A stretch of 64,000 nt of DNA. Source: Mycolicibacterium lutetiense (GTDB taxonomy: Bacteria; Actinomycetota; Actinomycetes; Mycobacteriales; Mycobacteriaceae). The stretch covers positions 434,001 through 498,000 of the forward strand of contig NZ_JAGIOP010000002.1 in assembly GCF_017876775.1 (NCBI RefSeq). The letters are read 5' to 3'. Both the position numbers and the translations under genes were made by a program. Under the pieces are notes generated by a model. The model ran no database searches. It was given only the letters and a program-made list of their open reading frames with translations, and was not told the origin of the DNA. Position 1 is the first letter of the stretch, and every line of letters begins with the position of its first letter. Of the stretch, positions 1,788-16,604 are shown in pieces.

Positions 1788-2328
1788 CCGCCTCGAAAAT
1801 CGAAGCATCTCGGCCATCTCGAACCCGCCCCGCTCCAAACCCGGGTACACCTCGGCTCTCGCCCGGGGGCTCAGTCGACTGCGCATTCTCGACCCACCGC
1901 GTGCGACGCCCGTGGCCACCTGGTCATGGATGCTGACCTACGGTGCTGGAGGCGGGCAAAACCGCCCATCCGCGTTGCAAGCCCACTGACCCGATGAGGG
2001 GGACAAGTCGAGCCCAGCGACCAGGAACTCGGTTCCACACCGGCCCACAGCTATCCGCATACATTGCATCCCATCGGTCTGCGGACCGCTGATCCCGACA
2101 TATTCGCCCGTCCATGCTCCGCAGACCGCCCTGCAGGCAGCAGGTCTCATGCCGATTCAAGGCCTGCCCACGGCGTCTCGGGGTACTCGATCACGACGGC
2201 ATACGGGAGTATGTAGTAGCTCAGGATTATCGAATCGAAATCTGCAGAAGATTGGGGACTTTAGGCACTAGTCGCCGCAGCGGTGGCGGTGCGACCGTAG
2301 GTGGAGGATGACACGAAAGGGAACTCCC
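1788..2328. other. Intergenic stretch, no gene seen
   Basis: About 540 bases without a convincing gene. Overlapping open frames on both strands have no recognisable motifs or ribosome sites. The promoter of the small secreted protein is presumably at its right end. Confidence 0.4.
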
Positions 2329-2568
2329 ATGAAGACTCATTTCCACCATCTGCTGACGATCAGTGCAGCAACCCTCGGCGCCGCGGCAGCGATTAGCGCT
2401 CCTGCTGCAGGGGCGGCTCCGCAAGAATGCTTGCAGCCATCTCCCGGAGTGCACGAATGCACCTCGCCGGGGCACGCACAAATCCACGTGCCGCCACCGG
2501 CCCCCAACTACCCCAACTACCAAGGCGGGCCAGGGGGCGGTCCCCCGCATCTGCCTTGGATCGGCTAG
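2329..2568 (+). CDS. Small secreted Pro-rich protein
   Basis: Predicted exported protein of 79 aa with unknown function. ATG 2329 is chosen over the upstream ATG 2308 because AAAGGGA sits at the right distance before it. Residues 1-28 form a signal peptide (hydrophobic AAATLGAAAAISAPAAGAA core). The mature part has two Cys (CLQPSPGVHEC) that could form one disulphide, and a Pro/Gly/His-rich tail. Such short secreted proteins are common in mycobacteria; I do not recognise a named family. Confidence 0.65.
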   Translation: MKTHFHHLLTISAATLGAAAAISAPAAGAAPQECLQPSPGVHECTSPGHAQIHVPPPAPNYPNYQGGPGGGPPHLPWIG

Positions 2569-2850
2569 CTCTCGCATCGTCAAACAGCCCGCGCACGCGT
2601 GCCCTTGATGGCCGAAAGTTGCAGCACCGGGCCAGGTGTACCGTCACGCCTGGCCGGATCGTCGATCCTTTGGCGGTCACACCGTCGCTTGTGACCGGTC
2701 GCAAGCAGGGTTGCTCTTTGGCGCGGGGAGCGCCCGTGAAGAACCCGAGATCCTATGCCCGACACGGCAATCGTGTGATCCTGACCGGCCAGCCTCGCCA
2801 TACAAGAGCTTCCGTCACACTCGAAAACGATTCGCATCAAGGAGACCGTT

Positions 2851-3105
2851 GTGATGATTTGGAACGACCACGACATGGGTTGGTGGGGTTATGCCGGGAT
2901 GGGGATAGGCATGGTGCTGTTCTGGGCCCTGTTGATTCTCGCGATCGTGGCGTTGATCCGACTCATCACCAAACCGCTGCAGTCTTCGACCGCAGCGGTA
3001 CCCACGCCCGAACAGGTCCTGGCTGACCGGCTCGCGCGCGGGGAAATCACCGAGTCGCAGTACCGCGAGAAATTGGCCGTTCTCCGGGACCACCCGCCAC
3101 AGTGA
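2851..3105 (+). CDS. SHOCT-domain small membrane protein
   Basis: Protein of 84 aa with one transmembrane helix at about residues 17-40 and a C-terminal SHOCT-type motif (about 52-78: LADRLARGEITESQYREKL). SHOCT domains are short C-terminal helices linked to oligomerisation. The N-terminus is rich in Met, Trp and Gly (MGWWGYAGMGIGM), often seen in small proteins near metal-stress genes, which fits the nearby copper-binding protein. AAGGAG lies 7 nt before GTG 2851; ATG 2854 is an equal alternative start. Confidence 0.75.
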   Translation: MMIWNDHDMGWWGYAGMGIGMVLFWALLILAIVALIRLITKPLQSSTAAVPTPEQVLADRLARGEITESQYREKLAVLRDHPPQ

Positions 3106-3485
3106 AACGCTCATGACTGCCCTGCAACACACCGCTGCGCGGCGTTCCGACGACGATCGCCGCGTCGCAACAGCGCATCGTTTTCAGCAAGGTCGAGGAC
3201 CCCAGCGTGGTCGCAAGCATCGACAGCTCGCGTCGCGCCAGATCGCGCCCAGTGCGTTCCACCGTATCGTCACGTGCCTACCCCATTTGTAGAAGTGCAC
3301 CACGGTCTTTCGCCATCCATTTCGAATTCGATGCTGCCAGCGGGCAACCGGTTCGCTGAGCCGCGCAATAGGCGCTGCTACAGTCCGTGGTGCGGGTCGA
3401 CACCGTAACCACCGTCCCGCGCGGCGGCAAGCGATGCGCCGCATGATCGCGCAGGGGTGACGATCAGGTCACCGATTCGCCTCCG
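3106..3485. other. Intergenic stretch left of the Tn7-like genes
   Basis: No gene is supported. The left end of the Tn7-like element should lie here or slightly further left, but I could not find a terminal repeat matching the right-hand side. Confidence 0.35.
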
Positions 3486-4286
3486 TTGCAGCGTTTCCCG
3501 GTGGGCGGTGTCAGCCCGCTCTACCTTCGTGTCGTGTCCAACGCCGGACGAGTGACAGCGAAAACCCGCCGCAGCGGTCAGGTCGAATACCGGCCCGCTG
3601 AGGGACTGCCCGTCGCCTGGGCAGGTGCAGGTGAGCTCGGGTCGGTGCCGTTCGAAACATGCGCTCCCATCCGCAAACCCGCCTCCTACAAGGGGCAGAA
3701 GAACTTCACCGGGCAATGGTGGAGCGCCACAACCGGCACGCATCTGGCCTTTGACTCCTGGGTTAAACGTGATTTCCTCATTAGCGCCGATTTTGATCCG
3801 GCGGTCGTGGCCATCTCGGTGTGGCCGTTCACGTTCCAGTTCAGGTCACGCTCGGGAAAGCTGCGCGATCACACTCCGGACGTGTTCTTGCGCTTTGCGG
3901 GCGGGAATGCCTCGCTGGTCGACGTGCGCACAACAACATCGGCCAGTGAGCGCGACAATGAGGCATTCGCCGCTGCTGCTGCTCTGTGCGAGGGCGCCGG
4001 GTGGTCCTATCTGCGGGCCGCCGAACAGCCCGTTGTCCGTGCCGCGAATCTGCGCTGGCTCGCCGGCTACCGCCATGGGCGAAACCGTGACCACGTCGTG
4101 GCTGCCACGATCGACAGCCGACTCGCCGAGGGACCGCTGTGCATCGACTCGCTCGCCGCCGCGGTCGGCGAACCAATCGCCGTGTTGCCCACCATCTATC
4201 ACCTGCTGTGGACACACGAGGTTGTCGCCGATGTCGACACCGCACCGCTGAGCGGCCACACACTGATCGAAACCGGCCAGACATGA
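3486..4286 (+). CDS. tnsA: TnsA-like transposon endonuclease
   Basis: TnsA-family nuclease (266 aa from TTG 3486) that would cut the 5' ends of the transposon while TnsB cuts the 3' ends. The actinobacterial TnsA pattern is present: a THLAFDSWVKRDF segment, DFDPAVV, then TPDVFLRF and VDVR for the second acid and the basic residue. The usual Glu of the first motif (ES.LE) is read here as Asp (FDSW). The stop overlaps the tnsB start (ATGA). The start is uncertain; GTG 3501 is an alternative. The closing 60 residues look like a winged-helix partner-binding region, which is inference. Confidence 0.75.
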   Translation: MQRFPVGGVSPLYLRVVSNAGRVTAKTRRSGQVEYRPAEGLPVAWAGAGELGSVPFETCAPIRKPASYKGQKNFTGQWWSATTGTHLAFDSWVKRDFLISADFDPAVVAISVWPFTFQFRSRSGKLRDHTPDVFLRFAGGNASLVDVRTTTSASERDNEAFAAAAALCEGAGWSYLRAAEQPVVRAANLRWLAGYRHGRNRDHVVAATIDSRLAEGPLCIDSLAAAVGEPIAVLPTIYHLLWTHEVVADVDTAPLSGHTLIETGQT

Positions 4287-6352
4287 CCATCGAACGAGGC
4301 CGAATCTCTGTTGGCGACTTCTGCCACTACGACGACACCCTGTGCGAACTGATCGCCACCGACGGGATGATCGCCAAACTGCGCCGCGAAGACGGCCGAC
4401 ATATCGCGATCAAGATCGCTGAACTGTTCGACGACAAGTCATTTCGTGTGATGCCCTCCACACTGCGGCGACGACCCCTGCCGCCCGATGACTTCGACTC
4501 GCTGCCCAGCGACGTGCGTAACCGCGCGCTGCACTGGGAACACCACATCAGCGAGGTCCTCGATGGGCGGCCCGTCGGTTCGGACGTAGCAGCTCGAATC
4601 CGCGACGAGTACAACGTCGCGGCAACCTCTTTAGGCCAGCGTGAACGCACCAAAGTGGCGGAGTTGCGCGCCGACGGCACCCCCGTGAACCTGAAACACT
4701 TTCAACGGCTGCGGCGCCGTTACGAAAAGACTGGCCTGGAAGGGTTGATCGATCTCCGCCACCGGCGCCACACCTCGACCACCGGCCGGGTCGACGACCG
4801 ATACGTCGGAATTCTGCTTGAGGTGCTCGCCGAGAACACGCTTCAGTCGACGCGCACCCAAACGGCATTGAAGTGGCATGTCGATCAGCGCGCAGCTGAA
4901 CGGTTCGGCCCAAATCTGCCCATTCCGTCGCACGCGACGTTTCACCGACTGCTGCGGCGGCTACCGCAAGCCCGCCACGCCACCGGGTCGGCACGAACCC
5001 GCCAGAGCAAAAGCCATCAACCTGACGGCGTGCACGGTACAGTGACCGCCACCCGCCCGGGCGAGTGGATGCAGATCGACACCACACCCTTCGATGTCAG
5101 CATCCGATTGGACGACACCGTGACTGGGCGCGTCGAACTGACCATCCTCGGCGACATAGCCACCCGCACCATCGCGGCCGCGGTGTTGCGGCCCACCACC
5201 AAAGCAGTCGATGCCGCGCTGTTGCTGGCCAAGTCGATGACCCCAGAACCCATGCGCCCCGGATGGGTTGAGGCGGTGCGAATGTCGAACTCGGTCCTGC
5301 CCTATCACGTCATGCGGTCACTCGATGAACGACTCGAACATGCTGCGGCCCGGCCGATCATCATCCCGGAGAACATCGTCTACGACAACGGTGCGGTGTA
5401 CCTGTCGGCCACGTTCCGCTCAGCATGCCGCTCGCTCGGCGTCAGCATGCAACCCGCCCACAAGGATCAGCCCACCGACAAACCCGTCGTGGAGCGGGCT
5501 TTCGGCTCGGTCAAGACGCTCTTCGCCCAATATGTCACCGGGTATCTCGGATCATCGGTGGAACACCGCGGCAAAGGCGCCGACAAAGCCGCGGTGTTCT
5601 CGCTCCCCGAACTGCAAGATCTCCTCGATGAGTGGGTCGTGGTGTGCTGGCAGAACCGCCCACACGAGGGCTTGCGGGATCCGCTGAACCCCAAACGTCT
5701 GCTCACCCCCAACGAAAAGTACAGCGCCATACTCGGATACAGCGGCTATGTTCCCACCCCGCTCAGCGGTGATGATTACATTGCACTGCTGCCCCGCACG
5801 TACCGGGTCATCGGCGCATCCGGGATCAAGATCGGCCACCGCGTCTACCAAAGCGACGAACTCAACCCCATCCGCGGTCAACTCTCCGGCGTGACGGGCA
5901 AAGGCAAATGCTGGCGAGTGCACTACGACCCCTACGACATCAGCCGCGTGTGGGTGCGCAACCACCACGGTGAAGGCTACCTGCAGGCCTACTGGACCCA
6001 ACTGCACACCATGCCCGAACCGTTCGGCGCCGCGATATGGGATTACGCGCGTCAACTCGAATCCGAACGAGGCCAACGTGGCGACTCCCAGGAAAACATC
6101 AAAGCCGCCGTCGACGATCTGCTCCAACGCGCCAGCACCGACCCTCCCAAACCGTCACGGCGCCGCACCGCCAAACAGGACCGGCGCATCGTGGCCCGCA
6201 CCCGCGCAGCAGCCCAACAACCACCCACCATCGCTGCTGGGCCACAAGAGGTCTGGCCCGAACCGTTGGCCGCCGAGGCCCCACCCGAAGACGTCGCCGA
6301 TGTGATCCCCCTACCGGTGTTCGATGCAGAGAAGGAAGCCCAAACATGGTGA
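4283..6352 (+). CDS. tnsB: TnsB-like DDE transposase
   Basis: Transposase of 689 aa with an rve/RNase H fold core and Mu-type C-terminal region. The catalytic triad reads Asp266 (WMQIDTTPFD), Asp368 (IVYDNGAVY) and Glu404 (KPVVERAFGS), giving DD(35)E spacing. N-terminal helix-turn-helix segments (LKHFQRLRRRYEKTGLEGL) should bind the transposon ends. The start is the ATG inside the ATGA overlap with tnsA; a longer upstream open frame only shadows tnsA. Its stop overlaps the tnsC start. The C-terminal tail from about residue 590 is charged and likely contacts TnsC. Confidence 0.9.
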   Translation: MTIERGRISVGDFCHYDDTLCELIATDGMIAKLRREDGRHIAIKIAELFDDKSFRVMPSTLRRRPLPPDDFDSLPSDVRNRALHWEHHISEVLDGRPVGSDVAARIRDEYNVAATSLGQRERTKVAELRADGTPVNLKHFQRLRRRYEKTGLEGLIDLRHRRHTSTTGRVDDRYVGILLEVLAENTLQSTRTQTALKWHVDQRAAERFGPNLPIPSHATFHRLLRRLPQARHATGSARTRQSKSHQPDGVHGTVTATRPGEWMQIDTTPFDVSIRLDDTVTGRVELTILGDIATRTIAAAVLRPTTKAVDAALLLAKSMTPEPMRPGWVEAVRMSNSVLPYHVMRSLDERLEHAAARPIIIPENIVYDNGAVYLSATFRSACRSLGVSMQPAHKDQPTDKPVVERAFGSVKTLFAQYVTGYLGSSVEHRGKGADKAAVFSLPELQDLLDEWVVVCWQNRPHEGLRDPLNPKRLLTPNEKYSAILGYSGYVPTPLSGDDYIALLPRTYRVIGASGIKIGHRVYQSDELNPIRGQLSGVTGKGKCWRVHYDPYDISRVWVRNHHGEGYLQAYWTQLHTMPEPFGAAIWDYARQLESERGQRGDSQENIKAAVDDLLQRASTDPPKPSRRRTAKQDRRIVARTRAAAQQPPTIAAGPQEVWPEPLAAEAPPEDVADVIPLPVFDAEKEAQTW

Positions 6353-7395
6353 GAAAACGCGCGGTCGCAGAGTCAGACGACGACCAATCAGACGGCGGCG
6401 ACGTACGCCGACTACCCGCAGTCACCCTCGATGGATGGCGGCACTTCGTCAAATCCAAACCGATCACCTTCGATCTGCTCGACCAGGACAAGTACCACCA
6501 ACTCAGTGGCAACGCCCAACTCGACTACGACGACCGAAGAATGGCCTACCACTCCGAATTGGTGACCATCGAAACCTCGGTGGTCCGGCGCATCACCCGC
6601 CAAGGCCGCCTACTGACCCTGCTCAACCAACGCGAAGGCGGCGCCCGCCGCTCCATGATCGTCTCCGGGCCCTGGGCCAGCGGCAAAACCACCACCATCA
6701 AACTTCTGGGCAAGATCCACGAGCAAACCGTGTGGCGACGCTATCCGGGCCAAGACCGCATCCCCGTCGTCTACATCACCACCCCACCCAAAGGTTCCCC
6801 ACGCCAACTGGCCGCCGAGTTCGCGCACTTTCTGGGCCTGCCGACCCGCGCCCGCCACAACACCACCGACATCGCCGACGCGGTCTGCCGCGTACTCACC
6901 GACGCCCGAACTGAACTGGTCATCGTCGACGAGATACACAACCTCAACCTGGCCAGCGCCGCCGGCGAAGACATGTCCGATCACCTGAAATATTTCAACG
7001 AACACATGCCCGCCACCTTTGTCTACGCGGGCATCAACGTGGAGCGTTCCAACCTGTTCGCCGGCGTGCGCGGGCGGCAGATCTCTGGACGATCAGTGCT
7101 CATCCAAACCGGGGTGTTCGGCTTCGACGACGAATGGAAATCCCTTGTCGCCACGCTGGAGTCAGCTCTTCGACTCTACAACCACCGGCCCGGAACACTT
7201 CTGCGCAATGCCAAGTATCTGCACCAACGAACAGGTGGTTCCATCAGCAGCCTCAGTCACCTGGTCCGGGCCAGCGCGATCACCGCCATCCTTGCCGGCG
7301 AAGATGCCATCACCCGCGCCACTCTCGAAGACACCGTCATCGACCACGCCGCCGAGTCGGTCACCAGTAGACCCACAGTCGCCAAAGCGATCTAG
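6346..7395 (+). CDS. tnsC: TnsC/TniB-like AAA+ ATPase
   Basis: AAA+ ATPase of 349 aa that would link the target selector (TniQ) to the transposase. Walker A is GPWASGKTT with Lys114; Walker B is ELVIVDEIHNL with Asp195-Glu196. ATG 6346 overlaps the tnsB stop by 7 bases, and the longer open frame upstream is only a shadow of tnsB. The family assembles filaments on target DNA. The N-terminus (about 1-60) probably carries the TnsB/TnsA contact region. Confidence 0.88.
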   Translation: MVRKRAVAESDDDQSDGGDVRRLPAVTLDGWRHFVKSKPITFDLLDQDKYHQLSGNAQLDYDDRRMAYHSELVTIETSVVRRITRQGRLLTLLNQREGGARRSMIVSGPWASGKTTTIKLLGKIHEQTVWRRYPGQDRIPVVYITTPPKGSPRQLAAEFAHFLGLPTRARHNTTDIADAVCRVLTDARTELVIVDEIHNLNLASAAGEDMSDHLKYFNEHMPATFVYAGINVERSNLFAGVRGRQISGRSVLIQTGVFGFDDEWKSLVATLESALRLYNHRPGTLLRNAKYLHQRTGGSISSLSHLVRASAITAILAGEDAITRATLEDTVIDHAAESVTSRPTVAKAI

Positions 7396-7399
7396 CGCC

Positions 7400-8329
7400 A
7401 TGACATCCCTCACTGCAGCCCTGCAATCCCCCGCCCGGAGCCTTCCGCGGCGCGTCAAGCCTCTGCCCAACGAAGTTCTTGACGCATACCTGAGCCGACT
7501 CGGAGACGCCAACGGGATCGACCGATACAAACTGTTGACGTTGCTGGGCGGCCGGGACGGATCGCTGCGTGGGGGGCTGTCAATCGCGGCCCGGATCAGC
7601 GACCGCGGGATCGCCTTCGCGCTCCCGGAATTGCGGACACCCGCCGACCTGATCACCTATCCCGAACTCATCGGCCGGCCACGCGCCGCGTACACCGGGC
7701 CCGCGTGCCCCCAATGCGCCTCCCGACACGGAATTCGCAACTACTTCCCCCGCGTCTGGACCACCCACGACAATGTTCTGTGCGCCAAACACGGCATGTG
7801 GCTCAACGGCCCCCTGTTCAAAACCGACACCGGCCGTCCGGCCATCACACTTACCGGCGCCACAAAACACGACATCACCCTCGCCCATCAGCGCCACCAA
7901 CAACTGATCATCGAGCGCGGGCGCCAGCTGACCCGCCAGGCGATCGCCGACGCCTACACCATCATGGAGCACTGGAACCATTGGACCCTGCTGCCCTCCG
8001 TCGCCGAACGCAGCTGCGAACTAGAACTCGATCCCGCCCGGCGCGGTGCCAGCACCGTCGTACGCAATGCGGCGACCTACCCCGAAGCGGTCGCCCTCGC
8101 CACCGAACTGACCAACTCCCGCCATCGCCGACGGCTCGTGAGCGGCCCCCGCCACAGAGTCGCCTACGTCTACGCCGAGATCTGCATGACCACCATCGGC
8201 GAATTTCCATTGCCGCACCGGGCATTCGAGGCGCTCCACCAGTGGAGACAATCCCTGATCGAGCGGCGCGACAATCCCGATGCCCACGAACCAATGCCAG
8301 AAGTCGAGCAGCTTTCCACGCGCATGTGA
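7400..8329 (+). CDS. tniQ: TniQ-family target-selection protein
   Basis: TniQ/TnsD-type protein of 309 aa. The N-terminal TniQ region starts with PLPNEVLDAYLSRLG, followed by a zinc-finger pattern CPQC...CAKHG at about residues 108-137. It starts 4 bases after the tnsC stop, in the same operon. In Tn7-like systems such proteins recognise the target DNA or a guide complex. The protein is short, closer to TniQ than to full TnsD, and no CRISPR array or cas gene is seen here, so any guide or attachment site is unknown. Confidence 0.82.
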   Translation: MTSLTAALQSPARSLPRRVKPLPNEVLDAYLSRLGDANGIDRYKLLTLLGGRDGSLRGGLSIAARISDRGIAFALPELRTPADLITYPELIGRPRAAYTGPACPQCASRHGIRNYFPRVWTTHDNVLCAKHGMWLNGPLFKTDTGRPAITLTGATKHDITLAHQRHQQLIIERGRQLTRQAIADAYTIMEHWNHWTLLPSVAERSCELELDPARRGASTVVRNAATYPEAVALATELTNSRHRRRLVSGPRHRVAYVYAEICMTTIGEFPLPHRAFEALHQWRQSLIERRDNPDAHEPMPEVEQLSTRM

Positions 8330-8574
8330 CGGCAAGGGCACCCGACCCGCAGAATGGTTGGAATGCGCGGTCGCTGGGTGCGCAACGGCCGAGCGCCGTG
8401 CAACTGCGTGGCCGTCAATCGCCGCACCAGGTCGCTGTCTGTCTGCAGCGAAGAACCGCAACCGGTGGTAACCCGCCGCCGTTTATGCAACCTTCTGTCA
8501 GTCCTCGGTGACATAGTCGAGCGTTGGTCTGCGGTGCCGCATCACGCGGTGTCGGCGGGAGATGAGGATGGCAA

Positions 8575-10356
8575 ATGGATGTACGCCGGGTAGATATCGA
8601 GCACTTTCGCGGAATCGCGCGGATGTCGTGGCGGATTCCGGCAGGCACGGGGTTCGTAGCGTTGATCGGCCCCGGCGATAGTGCAAAATCGACCATCTTG
8701 ACCGCGATCGACATGGCGCTCAGCGATCGCTGGAACCTGGCCATCAGCGATACCGACTTCTATCTGGGCGACGTCGAGGTGCCAATAATGATTCGGGTCG
8801 CACTCAGCGATGTTCCGGCGGCAATCCGGCGCCACGACACACTCGGGATGTCGCTCGCCGGTATCGATCATGCCGGGGACCTTTACGAGGATCCTGACGA
8901 TGGGCTCGACCCATGTCTCGTTGTCGATCTCACGATCGACAAGCATCTCGAACCGGTTTGGACCGCGCATCGCCCGAACAAGCAAGCCCCTCCCGTCGCC
9001 GTTACTGCCTCCGCGCGCCAGATCATCGGGGCCTTCAAGGTAGATGAGCGGATAAACACGCATCTACGGTGGTCGCGCGCGTCGGCACTCGGCCGACTCA
9101 CCGACGCTGCACACCGCGCAGACGAACTGCTGCTCAACGCCAACAGAGCAGCCCGCAAAGCGGTCTCGGGCGCCATCCCGGTAGAGCTCGCTGAACTGGT
9201 CGGCACCGTCCAACAACGCCTTCACATTCTGGGCAGCGGCGAGTTCACAGACCTGCAGCCCGGCCTTGACCTATCCCTGTCCACGGCGTCAGGCAACCTC
9301 GCTCTCTACGAGGGTGCGGTGCCGCTCAGCAACTATGGACTAGGTACCCGCCGGTTGGCCGGCGTAGCGGCACAACAGTTGGCCAACGAAGGCAAGGGCG
9401 TCATCCTCGTCGACGAAGTCGAGTACGGCCTCGAACCTCACCGCCTCGTCAGCCTTCTGGCCAATATCAAGAAATCTGCGTCGCTGACGCTGGTCACCAC
9501 TCATTCGCCGACTGCACTGCGACACCTCAACGTTGACGACCTCGGGATCGTACGGATGAGCTCAGCGGGAACCCTGACCGTGAGCTCGTTCGCAGCCGAA
9601 CACACCGAATTGCAGCGACTAATCAGAAGCTCGCCCGAAGCATTTCTGGCGCGACGCGTAGTGCTCACCGAGGGCAAGACCGAATATGGATTCCTTCTCG
9701 AACTACTCCACCAGTGGGACGAAGAAGTGACCGCGGCAGGTCTGCCCTCGTCTGCGGCTATCGGCGTTGTGGCAGTGGAAGGCAGCGGTGGTGCCACCAT
9801 CGACTGGGCAAGGGTGCTGACCCAGGTCGGTTACGACGTCGTTGTCTTCATCGACAGCGACGTCCCCAAAGACCGCGCCGCGGCGGACGAACTCGAGGCG
9901 GAAGGCGTCGCAGTCATCCGGTGGAGGTCCGACCATCACATCGAACGCGCAGTTACCGACGCGCTGACTGCTTCCGAACTCACTGCCCTGATCGCGCGAG
10001 CCATCGAACTGGCCGATGACCCGTCCGCATCGCCAAACAACTACCTGGCTCAACTCAAAACCCGCGGCTTACCCCCCAGCACAACGACACTGGCGGCCGA
10101 GACCTGGGTCGCTGACGGCGTTGGTATCGAAGCTGCCCGCGAAATTGTAGCGACCGCAGCCCACAAATCCGGATGGTTCAAGCGCGTCGATAAGGGCCGC
10201 GCCCTGGCAAGGTTCCTGCAAGGTGCCCGAGGCTATCCGGACTCCGATACCGCATCAAAGATCGTCGCACTTCGCGCCGCGATTTTTGCGCCCTACGACG
10301 CCACGCCTTACAGCGAGCCTGATGCCGCTGCCATCGCGGAGCTGGCCGGACAGTGA
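8575..10356 (+). CDS. OLD-family ATPase/TOPRIM nuclease, GajA-like (Gabija)
   Basis: Protein of 593 aa: N-terminal ABC/SMC-type ATPase followed by a TOPRIM nuclease domain. Walker A reads GPGDSAKS at residues 32-39, with Lys38 kept but Ala37 in place of the usual Gly. Later ATPase motifs are GVILVDEVEYGLEPH and TLVTTHSP. The TOPRIM acids are Glu366 (LTEGKTE) and Asp427/Asp429 (FIDSD). Length, domain order and a helicase gene overlapping its end by GTGA match Gabija GajA (class 2 OLD), a DNA nuclease of an anti-phage system. ATGAGGA lies 6 bases before the ATG. Specific assignment to Gabija is inferred from architecture. Confidence 0.82.
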   Translation: MDVRRVDIEHFRGIARMSWRIPAGTGFVALIGPGDSAKSTILTAIDMALSDRWNLAISDTDFYLGDVEVPIMIRVALSDVPAAIRRHDTLGMSLAGIDHAGDLYEDPDDGLDPCLVVDLTIDKHLEPVWTAHRPNKQAPPVAVTASARQIIGAFKVDERINTHLRWSRASALGRLTDAAHRADELLLNANRAARKAVSGAIPVELAELVGTVQQRLHILGSGEFTDLQPGLDLSLSTASGNLALYEGAVPLSNYGLGTRRLAGVAAQQLANEGKGVILVDEVEYGLEPHRLVSLLANIKKSASLTLVTTHSPTALRHLNVDDLGIVRMSSAGTLTVSSFAAEHTELQRLIRSSPEAFLARRVVLTEGKTEYGFLLELLHQWDEEVTAAGLPSSAAIGVVAVEGSGGATIDWARVLTQVGYDVVVFIDSDVPKDRAAADELEAEGVAVIRWRSDHHIERAVTDALTASELTALIARAIELADDPSASPNNYLAQLKTRGLPPSTTTLAAETWVADGVGIEAAREIVATAAHKSGWFKRVDKGRALARFLQGARGYPDSDTASKIVALRAAIFAPYDATPYSEPDAAAIAELAGQ

Positions 10357-11843
10357 CAACCGCACCGCTCATCTCCAGGTTTCCGTGCTCCGTGGAACTT
10401 GCTGCCGGCGGCGGCAAGACGTGGCTTCTCGTCGATACCGTCCGCCAAGTCGCTGGAGGCTCGGGAAAGACATTGGTGCTCACCCACACGCACGCAGGTG
10501 TGCATTCCATTCGAAACAAGATGCGCACGCTCGGTGTAGCTTCTGACGCGGCACACGTTGGCACCATCACCAGCCTCGCATTCGAACTCGTGCGTAGCTA
10601 CTCCCGCATCGCCGGAATGGACGTTCCCCCCATACCGGACTGGGCAGACTCTAACGACTACATCGAGGGTGCGCGCCGCGTCATGCGGAACCCTCACGTC
10701 CGCGACGTGTTCAAGGTCAGCTATAGCCATCTGCTGGTCGACGAGTACCAAGATTGCTCGCTGGCCCAGCACATGCTGGTGACCGAGTTCTCCCATGTCA
10801 TCTCGAACTGCGCCGTCTTCGGAGATCCCCTGCAGGGCATCTTCGGCTTCCGCGACCCGCTCGTCGACTGGAACACCGACGTGCTCCCCCACTTCCCCGC
10901 CCATTCCTTCGACTACTTCCCCCGCCGGTGGATGGAGCACAATCAACCGCTCGGGCACTGGCTTTACCGGATGCGCGATCGATTGCGCCCTGGAGCGTCC
11001 CTGACCATCGACAACGATGCTCCCTCAGGCGTCACCTTCATCAAAGGAACACCGCGGAGAACGGAACTCATACAGGCCGCATTGCGGCCTCGTCCCGACG
11101 GCGAATCGGTCGTCATCATCACACCGCCCGACAAAACGTCAGCCCGAACGATCGCGGCCCAACTCAAGGGCACGTACGGCACCATGGAAGATGTCCGGGG
11201 CACGTTCATGATTGACGCCCTAACCGAACTAGAGAACGCCGCACCGGAGCGCCGCGCACGGTGGCTGGCCGACATGGCGAAGTCGTGCTTCACGGGCTAC
11301 GCAAACGTAAACAAGACGGTGCTCAACAAGCTTGCGACTGGGCAACCCGTCGCCGGTCTGACCCGGCCCGGGCTTGAACAGACACTCGCCGCATTCGACC
11401 GTGTCCTGACCGACCCCACCTTCGCCGTGATCAGCGACGCCATGCGGGACATCCGCTGCGCGAAAGAAGCTCAACTGCATTCCCGTGAAGCGTGGACCGA
11501 CATCGCCGCCGCCCTTGAACGATGTGGTACTGACCCCGAGCGGTCGGCCGTTACCGAACTCGGCCGCATACGTGATCGCCTCCGCCACAGCGGCCGGCCA
11601 GCCACCGCTCGGGTTGTCTCACGCACAGCGCTGATAAAGGGACTCGAGTTCGACCACGTGATCGTCGCAAACCTTGAACGACAAACCGACCACTGCAATC
11701 TCTACGTAGCACTCAGCCGAGCGCGCAAAACACTCACGATCATCGGCAAGGACAACACGATCACCATCACCGAGACGAAACGAACGCCCAATACAAAAGG
11801 TGGACGGTCGACCTCCGACGCGCCCAGGAACGCCAGTCATTGA
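10353..11843 (+). CDS. UvrD-like helicase, GajB-like (Gabija)
   Basis: Superfamily 1 helicase of 496 aa, close to the usual GajB length. Motif I is AAGGGKT (Lys22), motif II VDEYQD at 129-134, motif III VFGDPLQGIFGF, and motifs V/VI ALIKGLEFDHVIVAN and YVALSRARKTL. It lacks the large extra 1B/2B domains of full UvrD. GTG 10353 overlaps the nuclease stop, so the two are translationally coupled. In Gabija the helicase joins the GajA tetramer and helps sense or process invading DNA; that role is inferred here. Confidence 0.83.
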   Translation: MTTAPLISRFPCSVELAAGGGKTWLLVDTVRQVAGGSGKTLVLTHTHAGVHSIRNKMRTLGVASDAAHVGTITSLAFELVRSYSRIAGMDVPPIPDWADSNDYIEGARRVMRNPHVRDVFKVSYSHLLVDEYQDCSLAQHMLVTEFSHVISNCAVFGDPLQGIFGFRDPLVDWNTDVLPHFPAHSFDYFPRRWMEHNQPLGHWLYRMRDRLRPGASLTIDNDAPSGVTFIKGTPRRTELIQAALRPRPDGESVVIITPPDKTSARTIAAQLKGTYGTMEDVRGTFMIDALTELENAAPERRARWLADMAKSCFTGYANVNKTVLNKLATGQPVAGLTRPGLEQTLAAFDRVLTDPTFAVISDAMRDIRCAKEAQLHSREAWTDIAAALERCGTDPERSAVTELGRIRDRLRHSGRPATARVVSRTALIKGLEFDHVIVANLERQTDHCNLYVALSRARKTLTIIGKDNTITITETKRTPNTKGGRSTSDAPRNASH

Positions 11844-11846
11844 CAT

Positions 11847-12485
11847 GTGACATTTGCAGGAATATTCTCATCAACTATGTCACGTCCGGACGAGGTGCAG
11901 CTCGAAAAGCTGGGCATGATTGCTTCCGAACTGCAGGAGGTGATCGCCGAGCGTGGCTACCGTGTTGACGTCGCACTGAATGTCGATCCTGCATTTGGCA
12001 GCGGGCAAGCCCGGGCGTGGCTATTGCGCGACCTCGTGATGGATGCGATCGATGAATCGGCATCACGCGTCGGCGTTGAATTCCAGACAATCAACGGTGG
12101 CGGCCGAGAACTGCAAACGGTAGGTAACGGCGTCATCCACCGCTTCCGTTGCAAGAGTGCATCGCGGATTTCCGACGATCAGATCGAGGTCCTCGCGAGT
12201 TCAGACTCGCCCCTGGTCGTAGAGGAGGGCGGGATGTACGCGGTTGAGCCGTGGATCTTCGGGTACATCTCGTCAAGCCCTACAATGCTCGACGAAGTGT
12301 TCATCGCGCCAATCCTGGATTTCGTCGAGGGCAATCCGGGGCACTTCGACTTGGGTCGTCCAATACAGTTGCTCGGCTCCGAACTGCCGCCTAAGGGCTC
12401 GGGCTTCAAGCCTTCCGACGAAGGTCTGGAAGGTTTTGGGGATGACGACGTGGCGTCCGGTGACGCAGACAGCGACAGCGCCTGA
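11847..12485 (+). CDS. Hypothetical protein, partner of XRE-ImmA gene
   Basis: Unrecognised soluble protein of 212 aa from GTG 11847, or 202 aa from ATG 11877; neither start has a strong ribosome site. There is no signal peptide or membrane segment. The C-terminal 35 residues are acidic and disordered-looking (EGFGDDDVASGDADSDSA). It lies 3 bases after the helicase gene and 42 bases before the XRE-ImmA start, so it may belong to either module. Small unknown genes commonly pair with XRE-ImmA regulators, for which it may be the protease substrate or partner; this is inference. Confidence 0.65.
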   Translation: MTFAGIFSSTMSRPDEVQLEKLGMIASELQEVIAERGYRVDVALNVDPAFGSGQARAWLLRDLVMDAIDESASRVGVEFQTINGGGRELQTVGNGVIHRFRCKSASRISDDQIEVLASSDSPLVVEEGGMYAVEPWIFGYISSSPTMLDEVFIAPILDFVEGNPGHFDLGRPIQLLGSELPPKGSGFKPSDEGLEGFGDDDVASGDADSDSA

Positions 12486-12527
12486 CACGACAGATATCGC
12501 GTGAACTCATATCGAAAGGAGTTCGGA

Positions 12528-13742
12528 GTGCGACGGCAGAACGATCTCGGTGAGCGCATCAACAGGCTGCGCCTCGTCGCCGGCATCGGTCAAGTCGAGT
12601 TCGCCGAGCAACTCGGCATCGCCAACGGGTCGGTATCAAAGATCGAGAACGGCAGGATGCTGGTCTCAGACAATCTTATCGAGGACATCGCCAAAGTACT
12701 CGATTGCACCGCAACGTTTTTGAAGGCACCTGAAGTGGTGGGCCCAAGCACTCGCCCATGGTTGCGTGCGTACGCCGATGCGTCAAAGAAAGCGGTTGAC
12801 CAGCAGGCTGCAGACTGCGTTGTTGCCACTGAAGTCATTGAATTACTCCACCTTCGGCGCATACCTGATCAGATCCCGATCTTCCAAGACAGTCTGTCTG
12901 ACGATGACGCTATTGAGCAGTTCGCGATTGACGCGCGCGCCGCGGCCCAACTCGGCGAGAACGATGTCGTCGGAAATTCGATCCGCGCGGCGGAACGGCT
13001 TGGATGCCTAGTCCTTCCGATGCGTAACGAACTTGGCAGACATCTAGGCCTTTCGCTGCGCGCCGGACAAGTCCCTGTGTTGTGCGTCAGTCAAGCCGCA
13101 GAAAGCGGAACCCCCGGCAGCGTCCCAGGCGATCGGCAAAGATTCACTGTCGCACATGAGATTGGCCATTTAGGGCTTCATGCAGGATTGGGTCCCCCCG
13201 AGACTGCAGAGGAAGCGAATCGTGTTGAGAAACAAGCACATCACTTCGCCGGTGCATTTCTCTGCCCGGGCGACGCACTCCTGCAAGATCTCCGCGATGA
13301 AGGCGGGCGCGTCACACTTCGCGCACTATCGCGGCTGAAAGAGCGATGGGGAGTCTCAATTAAGGCTCTTGTCATGCGATTTCAGAGTCTGGGTGTCATC
13401 GACACAGACCACGCCCGAAGCCTCTACAAGCAGATCTCAGCACGAGGCTGGAACAAATCCGAGCCGGTACACGTCGGTCCTGAGGACGCGATATGGCTCA
13501 AACGTGCAATCCAGCAGTCCGCCGCTGGATCGGCCGACAGCTTACAGTCAGCGTCACGATCCGTGGGCATCGGCATGTCCCATTTGCTTCGCTGGACCGA
13601 GTGGGTGCCCGACGTCGACCGCGAATCTGCACCAGTGCTAGAGATCGACCGGGCAAAACGAGCCCGCCGACGGCAAGCTGCACAAGACAACCATGGCTCC
13701 GTAGGTTCTGTCTTACCACTAGCGGGGAAGCGCCAACGCTAA
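12528..13742 (+). CDS. XRE-family regulator fused to ImmA/IrrE metallopeptidase
   Basis: Protein of 404 aa with an N-terminal XRE helix-turn-helix (about residues 7-62, FAEQLGIANGSVSKIENGR) and a central ImmA/IrrE-type zinc peptidase with HEIGH (His210, Glu211, His214) and a downstream EKQAHHFAGAFLCP segment. GTG 12528 is chosen because AAAGGAG lies 7 bases before it; the open frame extends to GTG 12501. This class cleaves or controls repressors in mobile elements (as ImmA does in ICEBs1) and can act in stress- or phage-response switches. It is the last recognisable cargo gene. Confidence 0.82.
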   Translation: MRRQNDLGERINRLRLVAGIGQVEFAEQLGIANGSVSKIENGRMLVSDNLIEDIAKVLDCTATFLKAPEVVGPSTRPWLRAYADASKKAVDQQAADCVVATEVIELLHLRRIPDQIPIFQDSLSDDDAIEQFAIDARAAAQLGENDVVGNSIRAAERLGCLVLPMRNELGRHLGLSLRAGQVPVLCVSQAAESGTPGSVPGDRQRFTVAHEIGHLGLHAGLGPPETAEEANRVEKQAHHFAGAFLCPGDALLQDLRDEGGRVTLRALSRLKERWGVSIKALVMRFQSLGVIDTDHARSLYKQISARGWNKSEPVHVGPEDAIWLKRAIQQSAAGSADSLQSASRSVGIGMSHLLRWTEWVPDVDRESAPVLEIDRAKRARRRQAAQDNHGSVGSVLPLAGKRQR

Positions 13743-14369
13743 AGTATCCGCTGGTCACGACGACTGGCCTTCCTTGCCCGCGCCAGCATTTTGCACGTCC
13801 GTGTCATAGCCGCCTAGGGGAACGTCCACGCTTCACTGCGACGGCTAGTCAACCTCGATCCCGAACGATCACAGGGCGGTGCACAAGGATGCTCAATCCA
13901 TCGGGAGCCGACGGGCGACTAATGGGCATCGAAAAAGTGAGAAGCCTCTAGGGCGCATTTCCCAGTCTATCGGTTCCGTGCAGGTCAGAACTCTGCCGTG
14001 GGCACCGATTGATTGAGAAATGACACCGGCACAACGTGAGAGCTGTCCGATTCTGCCCTGTTTTCCGGAACCATCTGAGAGTCGAGTTGAGCCTGGTCGC
14101 TCGGGTGTTTTCCGACAGATGAACGGGCTGAGCGGTCTGTGCGACTCTCCGGATCCGCGACTACCTGACAGCGCCGGACTGGCATTCTGGAACCATCTGA
14201 TTGTGCCGGATTCCGATGGCATCTTCGCGGACCGGGCCATGGCTGATGCCCCTCCCCTCCGGGCTTCACTATGCCTTATACGTCACGTGACGTTTATGTT
14301 CCGGTATGGCTTAAATGCGGGAGGAGCGTGAATTGTCTTCTCGACCATGGGGTTTCGGGGTTGAATGGG
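13743..14369. other. Long noncoding stretch, likely right end of the Tn7-like element
   Basis: No gene is supported. It contains two copies of a motif sharing GGAACCATCTGA at 14,068 and 14,190, each followed or preceded by related GATT(C/G)TGCC and TTCCG words, which may be TnsB binding sites of a transposon end. The exact terminus is not identified. Confidence 0.4.
14063..14204 (+). repeat. Pair of direct repeats, candidate transposase-binding sites
   Basis: TTCCGGAACCATCTGAGAGT near 14,063 and TTCTGGAACCATCTGATTGT near 14,185 agree at 17 of 20 positions and are about 121 bases apart in the same orientation. Tn7-like ends carry several TnsB sites of about this size. No matching site was found left of tnsA, so the role is unproven. 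Confidence 0.4.
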
Positions 14370-14666
14370 CTAACGGGGGAACTCAAGGAGCCTGTGGCAG
14401 TCGCGTAGCTCCTGGTCGACGATGTCGATGGCCGAGGTGTGCGAGAGGAGTACCAGTGTCTTGAATTGGTCGAAGGTGATGCGGCGGCCGGCGAGCTCGA
14501 TGAGCCGAAGGATGAATTCGCGGTCAGGTGTCGCGCCTTCGATGATGCTGTCTGCAATGGCGTCGTACACCGCGCGCTGCTGAGTGGCCGACAAGTCACT
14601 GCCGTGCAGCAGCTCGGCCAGCAAGGCCAAGCTGTCGGGTTCATCGTTGCAGGCCTTGCGACTCAC
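14370..14666 (-). CDS. Small hypothetical protein
   Basis: Open frame of 98 aa on the minus strand starting at GTG 14666. The composition is protein-like and helical (SATQQRAVYDAIADSIIEGA and GRRITFDQFKTLVLLSH), with no signal peptide or membrane segment, but I do not recognise a family. No strong ribosome site is visible. It sits between the transposon cargo and phoU and could be host or cargo. Confidence 0.45.
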   Translation of the reverse strand: MSRKACNDEPDSLALLAELLHGSDLSATQQRAVYDAIADSIIEGATPDREFILRLIELAGRRITFDQFKTLVLLSHTSAIDIVDQELRDCHRLLEFPR

Positions 14667-14841
14667 TCCGACAGTCTATGTCGCATGTCCCATCCGAGAG
14701 CGTGGTTTTGTCACTGTGACACTTCTCCCTCCGGGTTGCTGACGGGAAAGTCACTGATGCACTTCGCTTTTGGGTTGATTTGATCGACAATGTTGACTGT
14801 TCCATCAATGTGCGCCGACACTCACCTCATTCGTGATCGAG

Positions 14842-15486
14842 TCAGGGCTGGCGTGTTCCGGTGGTTTGGTAGATGACGCGGTTGGCGACGTCGACGGCGT
14901 GGTCGGCGAACCGCTCGTAGTAGCGACTGAGCAGAGTGACGTCGACAGCGGCCGTGGTGCCGTGCGTCCATCGGTGGTCCAGGACTTTTGTGAACAGGTG
15001 CCGGTGCAGGTCGTCCATCGCTTCGTCGTCGGTGGCAAGTTGTGCGGCCCTGTCGGGATCACGTGAGAGCACAACGGTTTTCGTGTCCTGACTGATGCGT
15101 ACGGCGAGGCGACCCATCTCTGTGAAGTATCCGGCAACCTCACTGGGTGCCGCGACCTCAGGGTGACGGCGGCGACTGATGCGGGCAACGTGGGTGGCCA
15201 GCGCTCCCATACGGGCAATATCGGCGACGTCGTTGAGGGAACTCACCACCGCCCGTAGATCACCAGCGACTGGGGCTTGGCGGGCCAGGATGGTGAACGC
15301 GTCGGTTTCCAGCCGGGTGCACTCACAGGTGATATCGCTGTAGTCGGCGATCACGGCTTCGGCGATCTGCAGGTCGGGTGCAAGTAATGCATCGGTGGCG
15401 CGGGCCATGGCCTCGCCAGTGCGGTCGCACAGCTCGGCCATGCGGGCGTTGAGATCGTCGAGCTGCCGGTGAAACACAGTGCGCAT
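14842..15486 (-). CDS. phoU: PhoU-family phosphate regulator
   Basis: Protein of 214 aa made of two PhoU helical-bundle repeats (about 10-95 and 110-205). It begins [12 protein letters not shown], and the metal-binding-type motifs [19 protein letters not shown] and [17 protein letters not shown] match PhoU. PhoU dampens PhoR/PstSCAB signalling when phosphate is plentiful. ATG 15486 is chosen because homology begins there; the open frame runs further upstream to 15591. The next gene upstream on the same strand is a degenerate receiver domain, and no pst or phoR gene is in the window. Confidence 0.88.
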
Positions 15487-15587
15487 AGGCATTGAGAGTA
15501 AGGGGCGGCCCCGCAAGCCTCCAGAGGCCCCACGGCAAGTAGCAGGTAAACGCGCAGCGCCGCAACGCTGGACTTGGCTCGTATGTA

Positions 15588-15986
15588 TCACGTCGGCCGG
15601 TGGTGGCGGGTCCAGGCACTAGACCCCTCAGCGCACAGCGACACCGCCTCGACGATCTCGGCGCGGGAGGCCTGTGTCGATAACCATTGGGCCACACCGT
15701 CATCGACCACCCCGTCGGTCAACGGACGGCGAGGATTCGCCGATACCACCAGGACCCGTGTCGGCAGGCCCTCGTCATGCACCGCCGTGGCGATCGCCGC
15801 ACCCCGCAGACCGGGCAACTGCTCACCGACAAGTGCCACCTGAGGACGACGCGCCCGAATCAGCTCAAGCGCGGCCACCCCATCAGCAGTCTCTCCCAGC
15901 AGCCGCATCCCGCTGCCGCGCAGGATCTCGGACCACACCGCCCGCAATGGTGAATCATCACCTACCACAACCCGAATCAGGCCCAC
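15588..15986 (-). CDS. Degenerate response-regulator receiver domain protein
   Basis: Stand-alone receiver-like protein of 132 aa. The N-terminal acidic pair (VVVGDDSPL, residues 10-11) and the Ser of VLVVSANP are kept. The position of the phosphoacceptor Asp (PDVVLLD.RMPG in the family) reads [12 protein letters not shown], and the late Lys is also missing. It is therefore unlikely to be phosphorylated normally. It has no output domain, so it may act by protein contact. It lies about 100 bases upstream of phoU on the same strand. Confidence 0.7.
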
Positions 15987-16184
15987 CGGCCACCGCCCTT
16001 ACCGCTCATCGTCACAGCTGCGCGTTTGCCTGCGCAGTCAGTGCAAATGCCACAATGCTTTCGACCACAGGGTGCCCACCTGTTCCCTGCTCAGTGCAAC
16101 TAATCCAGACTGGAAACGATCCATTAGCGGCGGTTCGTCGGCATGGTTGGCAGCGAGACGCAATTGAGGTGCACTGATCCGAGG

Positions 16185-16604
16185 TCAGATGTGACCGCTG
16201 CTGCTCGGGCCGGTGCGGGGGCCGTAGCGTTCGGCGTAGGCCTGGTGGATGTGCGCATTCTTCTTGCGTGACAGTTCGTCGATGAGCGCCGGGTTCAAAC
16301 CGTGTTTGACGAGCATGTGACGGCGCCACACCTTGTTCAGTGCGTGGGAGAAATACACGAACGGAATGAAGATGGGCACGGTCATGCTGGCGTGCAGATA
16401 GAGCGACATCGGGATGAACCAGATCGGCGCCAGGACGAGGACCGCCGGAATCGCGACGCGAACCATCATCCGGACCGTGGCTCCGGGGCCCGCCAGGTCG
16501 TTGGCCACCCAGTCGCGCATCGAGTTGGGCAGCCGTTTGCCGTAGCAATACCCGATGTACTGCAGCGGACGTGGCTTCGTGCGTGGGGTTTGACCGGTGG
16601 GCAT
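16185..16604 (-). CDS. DUF5313 family membrane protein
   Basis: Mycobacterial-type DUF5313 protein of 139 aa. The signature LQYIGYCYGKRLPNSMRDWVANDLAGPGA in its N-terminal part (residues 13-42) is followed by two hydrophobic helices (about 45-62 and 68-90) and a conserved charged tail ending AERYGPRTG. ATG 16604 is used because similarity starts there; the open frame extends across the divergent promoter. Function is unknown. It is transcribed away from the ArsR-SulP pair. Confidence 0.75.
   Translation of the reverse strand: MPTGQTPRTKPRPLQYIGYCYGKRLPNSMRDWVANDLAGPGATVRMMVRVAIPAVLVLAPIWFIPMSLYLHASMTVPIFIPFVYFSHALNKVWRRHMLVKHGLNPALIDELSRKKNAHIHQAYAERYGPRTGPSSSGHI

Follow-up and report, generated by a model that had tools for sequence, protein, structure and literature searches.

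What do the genes behind tniQ in a Tn7-like transposon of Mycolicibacterium lutetiense form, one regulated defence system or several, and which of them travel with the transposon? We addressed this question in a 64,000-nucleotide stretch of contig NZ_JAGIOP010000002.1 (C2:434001-498000, hereafter the window; the genome comprises 6.35 Mb in 3 contigs), for which the original prediction, made from the letters of the sequence, had proposed a Tn7-like transposon carrying a Gabija-type pair under the possible control of a proteolytic switch. Our analysis points, with high probability, to a Tn7-like element with two independent immune modules, Gabija and a RosmerTA-like pair, between tniQ and window position 14025. 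All eight genes were found in the predicted order, direction and places with their motifs intact, and the gene array is real and not due to chance. The interval first given for the element (3486..13742) covers these genes and ends 283 bp before the right end described below. The features, in window coordinates, are as follows; proteins used as queries in profile searches were the longest open reading frames (ORFs), some with additional N-terminal residues.

3534..4286, plus strand: tnsA-like endonuclease (ORF from 3486; NCBIfam NF033179 TnsA_like_Actin, 224 bits)
4283..6352, plus strand: tnsB, DDE transposase, 689 amino acids (aa) (Mu-transpos_C 1.5e-8; QID/YDNG/KPVVE)
6346..7395, plus strand: tnsC, AAA+ ATPase, 349 aa (TniB 7e-17; Walker A GPWASGKT)
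7400..8329, plus strand: tniQ, target-selection protein, 309 aa (TniQ 1.3e-6)
8575..10356, plus strand: gajA, ATPase and OLD TOPRIM nuclease, 593 aa (PADLOC GajA; EGKTE, DSD)
10353..11843, plus strand: gajB, UvrD-like helicase, 496 aa (PADLOC GajB; GGGKT/DEYQD/LSRA)
11847..11883, no strand: operator-like GTGACA-N25-TGTCAC, spanning a promoter-like region and the hyp start codon
11877..12485, plus strand: hyp, unknown protein, 202 aa, first gene of its module (ORF from 11847)
12501..13742, plus strand: immA, XRE and ImmA/IrrE (M78) metallopeptidase, RmrA-like putative antitoxin/regulator, 413 aa
13885..14025, minus strand: right end of the Tn7-like element, terminus TGTC at 14025
14026..14370, no strand: right flank beyond the element, a repeat array found near tyrosine-recombinase genes in other genomes

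The right end places the cargo inside the element

Read on the minus strand from 14025, the sequence opens with TGTCAT-TTCTCA; CTGACCTGCA follows at offset 37, and there is a second box 76 bp further on. Transposase boxes stand at 14019(-), 13959(+), 13943(-) and 13890(+). This layout is the same as that of a sister element and closely resembles that of the element in genome G195. The site was the fourth-ranked match of a matrix built from the ends of relatives with 69% identity. The composite pattern TGTCNNTTCTCA-N25-CTGACCTGCA, drawn up only after the site and its fit to the sister layout had been seen, occurs once in the whole 6.35-Mb genome, with 0 mismatches where 3 were permitted, and none of 100 shuffled versions of the window contained it. 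Since the right end maps to 14025, 283 bp past immA, all four cargo genes (gajA, gajB, hyp and immA) lie inside the element as delimited by this terminal sequence, which agrees with the prediction that the OLD/UvrD pair belongs to it. The repeats at 14063-14200 had also been considered as transposase boxes and were rejected; they lie beyond the right end and recur elsewhere near putative tyrosine-recombinase genes, those at loci L154 and L155 being recognised by eye. The array to the right of the element (14026-14370) consists of GGAACCATCTGAGAG and variants.

The core genes support the same assignment. TnsA matched TnsA_like_Actin (NF033179) at 224 bits against a cut-off of 110, and because its relatives align only from about residue 13-21 onward, translation more likely starts at GTG 3534 than at the ORF opening at 3486. 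Classical TnsA carries a (D/E)XK motif, in place of which the window copy has DVR (3900-3935); the PD and DVR motifs are common to all eight alignment rows (own and 7 relatives), so DVR is not a decay of this copy alone. TnsB matched at E 0.001 or better in 117 of 297 genus genomes (own counted), with 66-69% identity in five other genomes and about 50% in many more. In those five, tnsA-B-C-tniQ order is conserved and identities are 80-82% for TnsC and 47-52% for TniQ. Among these five, tnsA is in two pieces at locus L038, and L039 matches the later part of tnsA only. In the present element, tnsA, tnsB (DDE), tnsC (AAA+) and tniQ occur together with TGT-type ends bearing transposase-box arrays, the right one in the window and the left one outside it, and families, motifs and ends all agree with the Tn7-like core first proposed. 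Judged from the host and the TnsA family, the element would belong to the actinobacterial branch of Tn7-like transposons.

Eight relatives with both ends, five sisters and three close relatives, provided the comparison. The sister elements (L045, L121-L124) share with the present element the right-end CTGACCTGCA at offset 37 and a near-identical left-end spacing (boxes 20 and 31 bp apart; right boxes 77 bp apart) and differ in being 10.3-14.5 kb long, with about 49% TnsB identity; they have TGTC ends and occupy varied sites. The three close relatives measure about 31, 31 and 37 kb by coordinates. Direct 5-bp duplications flank five of the eight (TGAAT, GCACG, ACTCC, GTTGA and CGTGA), the flanks are swapped (CTATC/TCTCG) in two, and the element in G002 has no duplication. 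Both swapped cases come from genome G102, where two copies of one 10.35-kb Tn7-like element (L045, L121) have exchanged their 5-bp flanks, as if the two had recombined with each other. A conserved GGCGTGTC before tnsA in relatives was dropped as a candidate end because their real ends lie about 2-9 kb away. The motif CATAATGTAGCTTATCGG was seen near a Tn7-like left end in G013.

The OLD/UvrD pair as a probable Gabija system

The predicted OLD nuclease of 593 aa and UvrD helicase of 496 aa are both present, the stop TGA of one and the start GTG of the other sharing GTGA. The PADLOC GajA model PDLC04168 matched residues 1-568 of 593 (3e-163) and the GajB model PDLC04173 residues 6-471 of 496 (2e-130), while Pfam-type matches identified an OLD-like TOPRIM in GajA (6e-7) and UvrD in GajB (3e-15). 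The model search that had been proposed for this pair supports its assignment to Gabija, with a GajA that combines an ATPase with an OLD-type TOPRIM and an adjoining UvrD-like GajB.

GajB relatives (E 1e-20 or better) were found in 8 of 396 genus genomes, own included, and GajA matches in 4 of 148, strong in the own genome only; a GajA scan of genome contigs gave just one distant locus (L007, 34%). At six of the seven other genus gajB loci gajA and gajB are adjacent, with gajA in two pieces at L117, while L119 holds a gajB piece only. Identity of the present GajA to that of the six other fetched genus loci is 38-48%, rising to 70-71% for records named Mycobacterium kansasii and Mycolicibacterium peregrinum and to 85% for the closest database relative, on a 29265-bp contig.

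hyp and immA probably form a module of their own

The database copy of hyp begins at ATG 11877 and encodes 202 aa. It has at least 103 relatives at E 0.001 and gave no match in Pfam, PADLOC, NCBIfam or PHROGs at the limits used; its structure model (pLDDT 86) comprises three helices followed by strands. The adjoining immA product matched Peptidase_M78 (1.4e-13), HTH_31 (1.6e-8) and PADLOC RmrA (3e-61) and has an HEIGH motif; its true start may be GTG at about 12528, behind AAAGGAG.

Within the genus, hyp occurs in 6 of 396 genomes, own included, and at all six loci an XRE-ImmA gene directly follows it (49-74% identity in the five others). No gajAB match was found in the 8-19 kb fetched at these five loci, and hyp is absent at all seven other gajB loci (6 with gajA). 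Because the pair stays together at every one of its loci, gajAB was unseen at five of them and hyp is missing at the seven other gajB loci, hyp and immA more likely make up a self-contained module, a passenger separate from Gabija. At one of these loci (L108) a type IIG-like restriction-methyltransferase gene (12592-16314) follows the pair and a TrwC relaxase gene (1973-7324) lies upstream.

The module also appears to carry its own control sequence. GTGACA-N25-TGTCAC stands ahead of hyp, exact at five of the six module loci and with one mismatch (by eye) at L110. In the window it begins 3 bp after the gajB stop and overlaps a TTGACA-N17-TATTCT promoter-like sequence (by eye) as well as the hyp start codon. 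The own genome contains it at a single place, and no copy within 2 mismatches precedes gajA or tnsA. The 37-bp stretch is partly symmetric, at 18 of 37 positions in the window and at 20-28 at four other loci. From the position of this operator-like sequence, we infer that the XRE domain may repress the promoter of its own pair.

An XRE and ImmA/M78 putative antitoxin next to a partner gene conserved at 6 of 6 loci is the arrangement of RosmerTA. The NetFlax study describes one RosmerTA validated as anti-phage, with an ImmA-type antitoxin and a membrane-depolarising toxin, and diverse RmrT partners (PMC10440598). The present pair resembles RosmerTA in its XRE and M78 peptidase protein adjoining a partner gene, but its partner family matches no library searched, and the toxin role is putative. 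We tentatively propose, as a possibility rather than a firm assignment, that hyp and XRE-ImmA could represent a new actinobacterial immune module, in which an effector, with a predicted fold nearest to that of restriction-endonuclease-like (PD-(D/E)XK) proteins, would be freed when ImmA stops repressing the conserved 37-bp operator. Such a module would be carried from island to island and by Tn7-like elements without being tied to Gabija.

The left end and the extent of the element

No convincing left end was found in the region that begins 40 kb before the window and extends to tnsA, whether the search used a 5-bp-duplication filter, the ends of the 69% relatives or the right-end boxes. When the whole genome was searched with the terminal sequence of the right end, TGTCATTTCTCAACTAATCGA emerged at C2:379396 on the plus strand with 3 mismatches, 54.6 kb ahead of the window start; two further 3-mismatch sites (on C1 and C3) are without the initial TGTC. 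A matrix trained on the four right-end boxes alone placed boxes at C2:379402, 379422 and 379454 (scores 20.1, 15.8 and 14.5), with spacings of 20 and 32 versus 20 and 31 in the sister element. Apart from the four boxes used for training and a palindromic pair near C2:432750, no other site in 124 kb scored as high. The element thus probably extends from C2:379396 to 448025, 68.6 kb, if both ends stem from one insertion. In support of this notion, a search of 198 genomes (own included) found the right flank in three others, G020, G176 and G171, and in each of them a left-flank motif of 29-31 bp precedes it, with 73-88 bp between the two; this arrangement is consistent with a single 68.6-kb insertion followed by a change at the junction.

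Between the probable left end and tnsA (C2:379396-437000) lie genes for E1-E2 ATPases, a multicopper oxidase, DUF326 and YkuD proteins. A Pfam scan of ten large ORFs on this side identified three E1-E2 ATPases (two with heavy-metal-type domains), the multicopper oxidase, a histidine kinase, an MFS transporter, a phage-type integrase and three transposase-related proteins. An empty-site search with long flanks returned mostly common genes, together with a collinearity with genome G087 taken up below.

Alternative explanations

Several observations weigh against a single intact element with two independent modules. At the own copy, the flanks show no matching target duplication (CATGG left, CCGGC right), which would mean that the junction has been altered since insertion or that the ends differ in origin. 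Segments of the DNA left of tnsA are collinear with G087, which has no TnsB match nearby, and the left part may therefore have been added later. For GajA and for hyp, the closest database relatives (85% and 89%, respectively) are each reported on a 29265-bp contig from the same source, perhaps one contig. At L114, a distant ImmA-like gene (6448-7335; 26%, E 6e-17) stands directly upstream of gajAB, without hyp, and ImmA may thus be linked to Gabija somewhere. The first of these bears on the view that the Tn7-like genes are a relic, with the two ends left by different insertions and the element immobile. Such a relic, which would also fit a size beyond the 10.3-14.5 kb of the sisters and the approximately 31, 31 and 37 kb of the close relatives, and the integrase and transposase-related genes inside, appears unlikely, if deserving of serious weight, as all four tns genes are open with motifs in place, the genome searches turned up only one left-end-like and one right-end-like site starting with TGTC, and three other genomes have the flanks close to each other.

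The last two observations, together with the shared strand and the mere 3 bp from the gajB stop to the first start codon of the hyp ORF, would suit one four-gene operon in which hyp and XRE-ImmA regulate Gabija, the proteolytic switch of the original prediction. We consider this very improbable: gajAB was unseen in the stretches fetched at the five other hyp-immA loci and hyp is missing at the other gajB loci, while a conserved promoter- and operator-like sequence of the module's own, with no exact second copy in the genome, follows immediately after gajB. It is likewise improbable that the OLD/UvrD pair is a related OLD-helicase system other than Gabija. The own GajA is only weakly similar to solved GajA: a single-sequence search of solved structures returned only 6p74, a bacterial OLD-family endonuclease, and no GajA; the pair has no NCBIfam match above cut-off; and a profile of 24 relatives reached 8jq9, 8sm3 and other GajA entries at E 3e-8 to 1e-7 over residues 275-389 only, slightly outscored by the retron Ec83 ATPase and PtuA (about 3e-9). 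These better-scoring matches are confined to residues 270-334, whereas the match to solved GajA runs from the ATPase signature into TOPRIM; moreover, Gabija is characterised by such a pairing with a UvrD helicase, and the PADLOC models match nearly end to end. We retain the reading of a Tn7-like element with Gabija and a RosmerTA-like pair as separate passengers.

Cargo in related elements

The statement in the original prediction that Tn7-like elements often carry defence cargo agrees with what the relatives hold and is already published, Gabija included. Behind the tns genes of the 31.1-kb, GTTGA-flanked element of G195 are HmaA, HmaB, HmaC and a DpdE-like helicase, and the G002 element has HmaA, an HmaB-like ORF and a DpdE-like helicase. 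No gajAB match was found in the 18.8-19.5 kb around the tns genes of the five 66-69% relatives. Among Tn7-like elements, a 2021 survey counts OLD/Gabija in 338 and ImmA in 295, and describes the members of an Actinobacteria-dominated clade as not experimentally characterised by then (PMC8649781). The present element resembles this clade in TnsA-B-C-TniQ, TGTC ends, box arrays, 5-bp duplications in relatives and variable cargo, and differs in its larger probable size, its location at an array of repeats close to tyrosine-recombinase genes and the lack of a matching duplication.

Implications

In line with the established roles of these proteins, TnsA and TnsB of the present element would cut and join at its two ends, with TnsC bridging to a target selected by TniQ. 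A complex of GajA nuclease and GajB helicase would attack phage DNA, while XRE-ImmA would repress its own pair's promoter through GTGACA-N25-TGTCAC and restrain the partner until its release by a signal of phage attack or stress. Copper-resistance-type genes would occupy the left of such an element, and Gabija and the RosmerTA-like pair would lie toward its right end.

Gabija and ImmA cargo in Tn7-like elements were known; what is new here are the mapped ends, the lack of support for a switch, and a family of partner proteins together with the operator-like sequence ahead of its gene. The locus provides a chromosomal Gabija pair within a Tn7-like element whose right end is mapped to the base, and in relatives quite different defence systems stand behind tniQ. 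Co-occurrence data are needed before an XRE-ImmA gene next to a defence pair is interpreted as the switch of that pair, and the partner protein now belongs to a defined family whose operator can be tested. If the element does span 68.6 kb, metal resistance and phage defence would travel on one element.

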